Assembly: GCA_002862205.1 (NCBI GenBank)
Contig: PKCN01000131.1
Span: 1 to 51,452, forward strand
Origin: Planctomycetaceae bacterium
GTDB lineage: Bacteria; Planctomycetota; Planctomycetia; Pirellulales; Pirellulaceae
Length of the DNA: 51,452 bases
Direction of reading: 5' to 3'
Shown one piece after another: positions 42,408-44,496 of the stretch; within the stretch, counting starts at the first letter, position 1, and each line of letters opens with the position of its first letter. Made by a program: the position numbers and the translations under genes. Under the pieces are notes generated by a model. The model was not told the DNA's origin, ran no database searches, and was given only the letters and a program-made list of their open reading frames with translations.

Positions 42408-42483
42408 CAGAGTGATTTGGCAGAGTGATTTGGCAGAGTGATTTGGCAGAGTGATTTGGCAGAGTGATTTGGCAGAGTGATTT
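42408..42483. repeat. 13-bp minisatellite, nearly six copies
   Basis: The unit CAGAGTGATTTGG is perfect at 42408, 42421, 42434, 42447 and 42460, with an 11-base sixth copy at 42473-42483. The array ends at the purine-rich RBS (AAAAGGG, 42484-42490) of the in-frame-TGA gene, 15 nt before its ATG. It therefore lies in the promoter or 5' leader. The rest of the 296-bp gap after xylA holds nothing recognised. Confidence 0.97.
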
Positions 42484-42498: not shown

Positions 42499-43587
42499 AT
42501 GATCAGGCGTTTTGCACTCGTTTTCTGTCTCGCAGCACTCAGTGGCTGTGTGATGGCTCAAGGGCCTCGTCCCAGCAACCTTGGTGCCTCCAATCTCGAT
42601 CTGGGTGAATCCGGGATCCAGTGGTACACCACTTGGGAATCTGCCGAAACTGAGGCAAAACGTAGTGGTCGCGCGATCATGTTCGTGGCGGCGGCAACGC
42701 AGTGCCATGGTGTCTCGGGTGTGTTCTGACCGGGCTACACCGCTACGCAGAACGGTCTGTTCGCGTCCCCAGATTTTATTGATGCTTCCCGTGACTTTGT
42801 TTGTGTCCGATTGGAGTCTTACGAGAGTCCTGAGCACCAGCAGTATGTTCGTACCTTCCTTAATGGAAGATTTGAAAATAGCGTCTTCTGCATGCTCGCT
42901 CCGGACGGACAGGAATGGCTGAGTCGTGCCAGTCGTGGTCCACAGCAGGTCTTGGGGCGAAGTGGTGCAACCCAAGCCTTGAGCCGATACGCGTTGATGT
43001 ATCCCGCAAAAGCTGACACCAAAGATGCCCTCGTGCAGGATTTTCATAGCTTTCGTCAGGCGTTGAATGTGGCCTCGGCCGACCAACGAGTCCTTGTCCT
43101 CATCAACGCTCCGGCTAATCAGGAGTCGAAGCTCCGCGAGTCGTTGCGGTCTGTGGCCAACGCAGAAGCCGTGATTGGACGCTTTCACTTCGATTTCGAG
43201 CAGGGGACGCAGTGGAAATCAAAGATCACGGGAACCCGCAACGAGCCAGGAATCGTCTTGATTCATCCAGGCGAATTTGGCTTGAAGGGAAAGGTCTTGA
43301 AGCAACTGCCTCTGACTGCAGGTAGTGAACAGATCATCGCTACCATGCAGCAAGCAAACGCTCAGTTTGCGGCTACAACGGAAAAGAAGGTCTATTCACA
43401 GCATGTGGCCAAAGGGAGCCGCGAGGGAATTTATTTCGAGGGAGCGGTGCCCTATGGCGAAGATCGTGATGGCGACGGTGAAATTGACCGTCGTGGTGGA
43501 GACCGCGGGCGAGGTGGTTTTGGTGGAAGAGGGGCCGGTGGAAGAGACGCCGGTGGAAGAGGGGCAGGTCCGCGTCCAACTCCCTAA
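42499..43587 (+). CDS. Candidate exported selenoprotein, thioredoxin-like, with in-frame TGA at codon 77
   Basis: One frame of 362 residues if TGA 42727-42729 is decoded as selenocysteine. RBS AAAAGGG precedes ATG 42499. A signal peptide (residues 1-20) has a Cys at 17 (LSGC, possible lipobox). A thioredoxin-fold-like start follows: WESAETEAKRSGRAIMFVAA, then C69, then VF-Sec77-PGY. After the TGA the frame stays open with domain-like sequence (FVCVRLESYESPEHQQY, ENSVFCMLAPDG) to TAA 43585. A second domain spans about 175-310. The C-terminus has an EF-hand-like acidic loop (DRDGDGEID) and an Arg/Gly-rich tail. A SECIS-like hairpin lies 3' of the TGA. The alternative is a nonsense mutation of a Cys or Trp codon, but no other lesion is present. 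selA, selB and selD are not in the window. Confidence 0.65.
42745..42766 (+). promoter_or_regulatory. Candidate bacterial SECIS element
   Basis: ACGC (42745-42748) pairs with GCGT (42763-42766) and GAAC (42750-42753) with GTTC (42759-42762). A single A (42749) is bulged on the 5' side, and a 5-nt apical loop reads GGTCT (42754-42758). The loop starts 24 nt after the TGA. Known bacterial SECIS elements sit directly 3' of the UGA, with a G-containing apical loop (GGUC in E. coli fdhF) roughly 16-37 nt away, and this matches. It is coding, so both roles overlap. Confidence 0.6.
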
Positions 43588-43606
43588 TCCCCGCTGTGAG
43601 AGTGAG

Positions 43607-43714
43607 CCAGTACCTCGCAGTAAGCCAGTACCCAGCAGTAAGCCAGTACCCCGCAGTAAGCCAGTACCCCGCAGTAAGCCAGTACCTCGCAGTAAGTCAG
43701 TACCCCGCAGTAGG
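43607..43714. repeat. 18-bp minisatellite, six copies
   Basis: Units CCAGTACCCCGCAGTAAG start at 43607, 43625, 43643, 43661, 43679 and 43697, with one or two substitutions in some copies and a partial seventh. It begins 20 nt after the stop of the TGA-containing gene. In one other frame it would encode a PVPRSK repeat, but no start or RBS supports translation. Confidence 0.95.
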
Positions 43715-44496
43715 CCAGTGCGGATCTATGCTTGGACTCGGCGGCCTTTAGCCTGCCTCAGGCACTCCTCTGGTTTGTGTTGGTGACTACAAGCAGAGTG
43801 TGGCCGAGGATCGATCGTGAGTCGGTTCAGCTGGCTGATTCGAAATGGGATACCGTGGGAGCATCGATTCCCATGCGACAGTCTTGCCCTTCCTCGTCAT
43901 GCGGTCACGCAGGCAGACGTCACGATCAGTCCTGAATTGCCCGTTTTGCTTTGTGAACGGAAGTACCGCTCGGCTACTGCTCCTTGTGGGAAAGGTGCGA
44001 TCGAGGCAAGTGAAAGGAAGGGGGGGCAGTATGCCCCTCACTTGAGATCTTCGCTTTTGGCTTGAAATGCCTCGCCGTAGCCCAGCAGATTTGATCCGCG
44101 AAGAGTATCGAATCGTGTTTCTGTGGGAGGCTTAGGCAACTGCTTTGCTCGAGCAACTGGGGTCAAAGGCCTGCCATGATTGAAAAATTGACATCTTTGG
44201 TGGCGTTACCCGTTGGGATTACGGTTAACCGCTGACCTCGTGTTAGACGGAGAAAAAGGTGGGCGCAGGGTGGTTGTACGAGTAATGTCGTTGGCAGGGA
44301 TTATTTGGGTTGTGGGTACCTCGGGCCGTTCGGTGCGTTTTCGAAGAAGAATCAGGGTGTGTCCAAGCCCTGCGAGGCGGAAAAGTAGGCGAAGGGATTC
44401 GTTTGCCAACTACGGTAATTTCAGGCCTTTAGGTTAACGGGAGGGATGAATTAAACCCATCATCAAATTCCTTAATGGAAACTACATGGAAAATGC
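43715..44496. other. Long stretch without recognised genes
   Basis: About 780 bases after the 18-bp array and before the promoter at 44497. Short frames on both strands lack RBS and family features. I see no tRNA-like cloverleaf, terminator or repeats. An unannotated small RNA cannot be excluded. Confidence 0.4.

Follow-up and report, generated by a model that had tools for sequence, protein, structure and literature searches.

Several described systems offer points of comparison for the gene studied here. NF041199 (Trx7/PDZ) likewise has a Thioredoxin_7-type domain near the N-terminus with selenocysteine (Sec) in the active-site region, and it also has a member in Planctomycetota (L099, 388.8 bits). 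It differs from our family in having a PDZ part and a CxxU motif, as given in the part of a 2026 catalogue compared here (PMC13188914); our family has the sequence U-P-G-K/Y and a second thioredoxin-like domain. The proteins of NF041382/NF041383 (VPGUxxT, OS_HP5) are likewise thioredoxin-like and contain Sec, but their Sec follows P-G (VPGU), whereas in our family it precedes P-G (UPG). DsbD gamma, DsbH and ERp18/TXNDC12 rank among the solved structures most similar to the first domain of our protein; they are Cys proteins with a two-Cys CxxC and no Sec, and their identity to that domain is 14-16%. At the RNA level, the E. coli fdhF SECIS element likewise forms a hairpin directly downstream of the UGA, and SelB recognises its small, G-containing loop; fdhF belongs to another protein family.

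The gene is located on a stretch of 51,452 nucleotides of a Planctomycetaceae bacterium (the window). An earlier note on this DNA had described a frame open from ATG 42499, save for one TGA, and continuing to a TAA. These coordinates were confirmed: the TAA is at 43585-43587 and the sole in-frame TGA, at 42727-42729, is codon 77 (Table 1). TGAs with at least 75 open codons before them and at least 285 after them numbered 4 of 2205 in the window. The upstream neighbour is a xylose isomerase gene (706 bits to TIGR02630), itself ending in TGA, and the next gene on the 3' side encodes a DUF1559 pilin-like protein; the candidate selenoprotein gene seems to stand alone. Comparison of the gene neighbourhood at 21 loci found no neighbour family that was generally shared, and a family that we take to be sulfatase-like adjoined 8 of the 21. 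Scans of the window returned no Rfam matches and no tRNAs. Two tandem repeats flank the gene, a perfect 13-bp repeat CAGAGTGATTTGG (42408-42483, 5.8 copies) that ends 15 bp before the start codon and an 18-bp repeat AGTAAGCCAGTACCCCGC (43601-43719, 6.6 copies) that begins 13 bp past the stop codon.

Table 1. Features of the candidate selenoprotein gene, in positions of the window.
Feature	Position	Strand	Details
Putative selenoprotein gene	42499..43587	+	362 codons, UGA 77 read as Sec, stop TAA; homologues
Likely export signal peptide	42499..42558	+	residues 1-20, probable cleavage before Q21 of AQGPRP
First thioredoxin-like domain (predicted)	42610..43032	+	residues 38-178, Thioredoxin_7 / DsbD-gamma / DsbH / ERp18 type, carries Sec
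Cys69, likely partner of Sec77	42703..42705	+	Cys in 62/63 aligned loci; presumed role
In-frame UGA, putative Sec77	42727..42729	+	TGA at this column in 63/63 loci read
Putative bacterial SECIS hairpin	42745..42766	+	arms ACGC 42745-42748, bulged A 42749, GAAC 42750-42753 / GTTC 42759-42762, GCGT 42763-42766; loop GGTCT 42754-42758 (GGUCU)
Second thioredoxin-like domain (predicted)	43048..43428	+	residues about 184-310, no invariant cysteine; AF2 model, Foldseek, alignment
C-terminal Gly/Arg-rich tail	43459..43584	+	from about residue 321; low confidence, acidic DRDGDGEID nearby

A search of related genomes used a query with Cys as residue 77 and was therefore not biased towards TGA; matches were obtained in 24 of 147 genomes and the site was present in 23, the family-positive genomes below, which leave out G113 as its single match is without the site. 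A profile (A1), built from 27 members, matched 118 of 392 phylum genomes at E up to 0.001, often only weakly and partially and in thioredoxin-like sequence. Above 200 bits there were 56 matches in 51 of the 392 genomes, of which 54 hold the TGA and the other two begin downstream of the site; the site itself was retrieved and inspected for 30 of the 56. The scope beyond Planctomycetota was one scan reaching close relatives only. The loci read number 63, comprising L009, six from the close-relative scan, 26 from the related genomes and 30 from the phylum search, and two weak or partial matches without the site (L038 and L043) stand outside this set. Several of the 63 repeat one organism: the proteins of L016-L020 are identical to those of L013, L010, L011, L014 and L015, L012 is nearly the same as L011, and L044 is the window locus again. 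The loci contain 54 distinct 57-nt stretches, and our 54-row alignment leaves out the nine repeats of identical 57 nt. Identity to the window protein ranged from 27.5 to 87.4%.

The aligned codon was TGA at all 63 loci, with no instance of Cys, TAA or TAG. Position 77 was thus neither Trp nor variable across homologues, and the TGA, being common to every locus read, was not strain-specific. The earlier note had expected that homologues would have Cys at position 77, and this expectation was not borne out: no Cys form was found among the 63 loci, and Cys at the Sec column was seen in remote Thioredoxin_7/DsbH-type matches only. Across 17 weak-match regions the Sec column held TGA in L084-L088 and L090, Cys in L089, L091-L093, L095 and L096, and Tyr in L094, with no residue in L097-L100. 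Since no Cys version was found, the usual argument from Sec/Cys pairs, customary for discovery though not obligatory, falls away. One TGA-bearing member (L022) comes from a single-contig genome (G075). Extra stops in five members (L029, L035, L045, L066 and L068) lie 2-6 residues before the end of the match and look like normal gene ends.

A hairpin 15 nt past the TGA, with paired arms ACGC/GCGT and GAAC/GTTC, a bulged A and a GGTCT loop, had also been proposed, and each of these elements was present as described. A 29-nt cut around it folds into this hairpin. The bSECIS model, in the part of the 2026 catalogue compared here, specifies a loop of 3-9 nt with a G in the first two loop positions, a spacing of 16-37 nt and an energy of at most -7.5 kcal/mol (PMC13188914). 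The window hairpin obeys these rules (loop GGUCU, starting 24 nt after the TGA, -7.9 kcal/mol). As a measure of chance, 870 of 2200 TGAs on both strands of the window passed the loop and spacing geometry alone and 119 passed the geometry together with the energy limit, so the window hairpin by itself is weak evidence and the comparison among homologues decides. Folded alone, the 60 nt from the TGA on were not unusually stable (z -0.47), and the minimum-energy fold of this isolated stretch differs from the described hairpin; it involves bases of the UGA and of the codon after it, a region presumably hidden by a ribosome positioned on the UGA.

Among the homologues, 60 of the 63 loci conformed to the bSECIS loop and spacing rules and 55 also to the energy limit. 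The geometry failed in L022, L036 and L037, and the energy limit was missed by L024-L027 and L034; in L022 the same stem is present with one mismatched pair, and the 29-nt cut folds differently. The stretch reads ACGCAGAAC-GGTCT-GTTCGCGT in the window group and resembles GGACAGG-AGTTT-CCTGTCC in most other members, the loop occupying identical columns in both. Over the seven named pairs, 86.2% of the cells were paired, whereas shuffling gave 68.3% and slid controls gave no more than 55.0%. The cells changed on both sides numbered 61 against 19.5 in shuffles, and the covariation score was 0.516 against 0.206 (shuffled) and at most 0.186 (slid). The remaining two of the five covariation measures add little: there were 7 pairs with two-sided change versus 5.4 in shuffles, 30 of 500 of which did as well, and 13 further pair types versus 12.6, a number equalled in 268 of the 500. 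The three basal pairs were unformed in 12-19 of the 54 rows, partly because the basal stem of the window group is shifted by a bulge. RNAalifold, which was given no structure, predicted the apical four pairs, each with two-sided changes.

A comparison of silent sites in eight close members, taken at conserved residues, gave codon differences of 0.083 in the hairpin versus 0.548 at 161 other codons, and the 8 lowest of the 96 windows scored for codon differences all overlapped the hairpin. In addition, pairing of the stem is kept in some members even though the encoded amino acids differ, as in ATG-GAC-AGG-AGT-TTC-CTG-TCC versus ATG-GAC-CAG-AGT-CTC-TGG-TCC. Conservation among homologues places the TGA and the putative SECIS hairpin far beyond chance.

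Estimates of dN/dS upstream of the TGA were 0.008-0.069 in six pairs of members. Downstream they were 0.024-0.063, computable in the four of six pairs with unsaturated silent sites, and these low values indicate that the part after the TGA is selected as protein. Neutral decay in this part, which the earlier note had set beforehand as speaking against its own reading, was absent. A search of the source genome for selA, selB, selC and selD found all four. The tRNA-Sec, with anticodon TCA, is on contig C282 (70.3 bits), and selA (431 bits), selB (303 bits, two joined stretches) and selD (271 bits) lie within about 5.4 kb on contig C86.

A tRNA-Sec hit of at least 60 bits was found in 21 of the 23 family-positive genomes versus 56 of the 124 family-negative genomes (Fisher p 2.3e-5), where 60 bits is our own threshold, placed in the empty interval from 59 to 62 bits; the hits below it are probably tRNA-Ser. 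At the Rfam cut-off of 47 bits, which 107 of the 147 genomes pass, the counts were 21 of 23 versus 86 of 124 (p 0.02), and the association is thus dependent on the threshold because the contrast weakens at this cut-off. The two family-positive genomes without a strong tRNA-Sec hit are G026, which has a 450-bit SelA, and G007, whose 77% complete assembly yielded no strong tRNA-Sec and no full SelA; its SelA match is partial (66 bits), like that of G003.

The assignment of a signal peptide was based on the hydrophobic N-terminus and a helix at residues 2-20 of the AF2 model, and the sequence AQ-GPRP around the probable cleavage site is common to most close relatives. AF2 modeled the whole protein as two domains (pLDDT 85.4, pTM 0.80), and the first domain modeled alone had a pLDDT of 84.6. 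In these models residue 77 comes after the loop that follows strand 60-65 and directly before helix 78-85. A thioredoxin-like fold, as proposed in the earlier note, is predicted by AF2, and Foldseek agrees. In Foldseek the first domain came closest to ERp18 (1sen), a domain from Methanosarcina mazei (3ira) and DsbD gamma, and further down the list were DsbH-type proteins; these matches were remote, with 8-17% identity among the 50 listed. The whole protein matched the tandem-thioredoxin proteins PDI, ERp44 and QSOX1, with TM-scores that, normalised by query length, were no better than 0.18-0.26, which we think reflects a different placement of the two domains. The viral structure library gave no hit at E 0.001, and the best match in a PDB sequence search had an E of 0.45. 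Thioredoxin_7 (PF13899) matched the window protein with 13.1 bits versus a gathering score of 27; at E up to 1 it matched 25 of the 27 members, the lowest E being 4.3e-7. The pLDDT of the C-terminal tail was below 50 at residues 321-325 and from 327 on, and the tail differs between subfamilies. The tail of the window group contains, besides Gly/Arg repeats, the sequence DRDGDGEID, which presumably resembles a calcium-binding loop and had no Pfam hit; the acidic stretch is absent from distant A1 members.

The site motif is W/F-U-P-G-K/Y and lacks the usual second Cys of CxxC, the place of which is occupied, over the 63 loci, by K (36 loci), Y (24), F (2) or M (1). A profile alignment pairs W-U-P-G-K with W-C-G-A-C of ERp18 (E 1.3), and the attacking Cys falls in the Sec77 column. 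On the predicted fold, Sec77 takes the position of the nucleophilic N-terminal Cys of a thioredoxin-like CxxC site. Eight residues, U77, P78, G79, C102, R104, E109, N127 and R146, were invariant in all 63 loci, and Asn127 probably lies near the cis-proline position of thioredoxins. Cys69 lies eight residues before the Sec; the single exception is Ser, apparently in L026, where a Cys occupies the preceding position.

Together, these data make it very probable that the gene encodes an exported selenoprotein with Sec at UGA 77 and two predicted thioredoxin-like domains. The insertion of Sec at UGA 77 is, judged from the comparison of sequences, almost certain, and redox chemistry of Sec77, to which the fold and the motif point, is likely. 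In our working model, SelB carrying Sec-tRNA-Sec would bind the hairpin downstream of UGA 77 and selenocysteine would go in there in place of termination. The product would leave the cytoplasm via its predicted signal peptide and fold into the two predicted thioredoxin-like domains, forming a periplasmic selenol oxidoreductase. Sec77 would attack an oxidised substrate (a disulfide, peroxide or sulfoxide), and Cys69 or an external thiol would resolve Sec77 via a selenenylsulfide.

The selenoprotein could instead be a peroxidase, or an enzyme of sulfoxide or organic hydroperoxide repair, rather than a disulfide oxidoreductase. Thioredoxin-like folds serve both peroxidase and disulfide chemistry, and the absence of the second CxxC Cys, with K, Y, F or M after U-P-G, is as in one-Sec peroxidatic sites. 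However, the nearest solved folds include the disulfide reductases or isomerases DsbD gamma, DsbH and ERp18, and Cys69 could resolve the Sec. We consider a peroxidase possible but rather unlikely.

We also considered whether the protein with Sec at UGA 77 is a divergent member of a family already described, namely NF041199, NF041382/NF041383 or TsoB (NF045694). All 27 A1 members were scanned singly against NCBIfam release 20, and no model accepted any of them. The Thioredoxin_7 superfamily is common to these proteins, and weak matches at E up to 1 were obtained with NF041199 in 19 of the 27 members (best E 0.0021), with NF041382 in 5 (best E 0.0013) and with NF045694 in 2 (best E 0.11). The scores, however, were 10.7-17.1 bits versus a cut-off of 300 for NF041199 and at most 18.1 bits versus 350 for NF041382, and the window protein itself had no match to either model at E up to 1. 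In addition, the motif differs, and the true NF041199 member, L099, scores 388.8 bits. With scores this far below the cut-offs we rejected membership in NF041199, NF041382 or TsoB, and a divergent relationship of this kind is very improbable.

No fitting entry was seen in the part of the 2026 catalogue of 119 families compared here, some entries of which are without a motif, and the sole UPG motif in its Table 1 is that of PrdC (PMC13188914). The selenoprotein section of a 2016 study of planctomycetes names fdhA and fmdB and refers the full list to supplementary table S9 (PMC4807772). Literature searches found no published account of the family, with that table and PMC12013261 outside the comparison. 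The novelty of the family, which the earlier note did not recognise as a described selenoprotein, therefore holds against NCBIfam and the compared part of the catalogue. Measured against these two sources, the proteins are, as far as their sequences indicate, a new family of a kind already known; its active site is unusual, and the searches found no Cys form.

Reading of the UGA by a near-cognate tRNA, Trp or other, would make the hairpin a read-through stimulator rather than a SECIS element, and conservation would likewise be expected of a stem-loop that makes a UGA leaky. A strong tRNA-Sec hit is also missing in two of the 23 family-positive genomes. Against this, selA, selB, selC and selD are complete in the source genome, the family is associated with tRNA-Sec (more weakly at the Rfam cut-off), the spacing and the loop G match the bSECIS model, and Thioredoxin_7-type relatives have the attacking Cys or a TGA in the aligned position; we regard such read-through as scarcely credible. 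It is similarly hard to credit that the TGA is a plain stop (the commonest kind, ending 15 of 25 ORFs picked from the window), leaving either a pseudogene or a 76-residue exported peptide and a protein from the possible internal start at TTG 42811, when all 63 loci have TGA and never TAA or TAG, homology runs across the site with purifying selection on both sides, and the hairpin covaries with its silent sites nearly frozen. An alternative genetic code was ruled out, as the xylose isomerase gene and the same 15 of 25 ORFs end in TGA, and an assembly error was ruled out by the many assemblies and the one single-contig genome.

We tentatively speculate, as something that may well prove otherwise, that the selenoproteins with U-P-G are an old, phylum-wide Planctomycetota family in which Sec is seemingly irreplaceable, and that they form a branch of an exported Thioredoxin_7 selenoproteome (UxxC, UPPC, CTUNNG and others) and of a periplasmic redox system that helps to keep the Sec trait. 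We read Sec as irreplaceable because no Cys form was found and because the stem is kept paired despite amino-acid changes. If this speculation is correct, a periplasmic selenium redox system would be missed by screens that need Sec/Cys pairs. The discovery of many bacterial selenoproteins relied on matching a TGA to Cys in homologues, according to the part of the catalogue compared (PMC13188914), and a family without Cys forms escapes discovery of this kind. Families in which Sec is never swapped for Cys help in testing why Sec is needed, and a strictly conserved U-P-G site without a second Cys is a defined redox question.

Other candidate selenoproteins were noticed. Two are in the same genome as the window gene (G000), and both are Thioredoxin_7 proteins with an in-frame TGA at the active site. 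L127 (C15:4491-4742) reads ATWUGWCKVL (UxxC) and has a lipoprotein-like N-terminus and GAGG-AGTT-CCTC after the TGA; L129 (C183:1870-2115) reads ETUPPCVALL. The source genome may therefore hold at least three exported Thioredoxin_7-type selenoproteins. L084 and L085 encode a 401-residue, apparently exported thioredoxin-like protein with an in-frame TGA in GCTUNNGV and a hairpin-like stretch, CCAGACGGTCYGTCTGG, after the TGA. L084 had no NCBIfam match at E 0.01, and the two are possibly another unlisted selenoprotein family. Five further loci (L086-L090) have Thioredoxin_7-type frames in which a TGA falls on or close to the Sec column, and all of them score far under the cut-offs set for NCBIfam selenoprotein models. 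Their motifs were UIGC in L086, UGGC and UPGC in a pair of adjacent paralogues of L087, UGVRC in L089, UPPC in L090, and UPAC in L088, where the frame lies alongside cytochrome-c-like matches.
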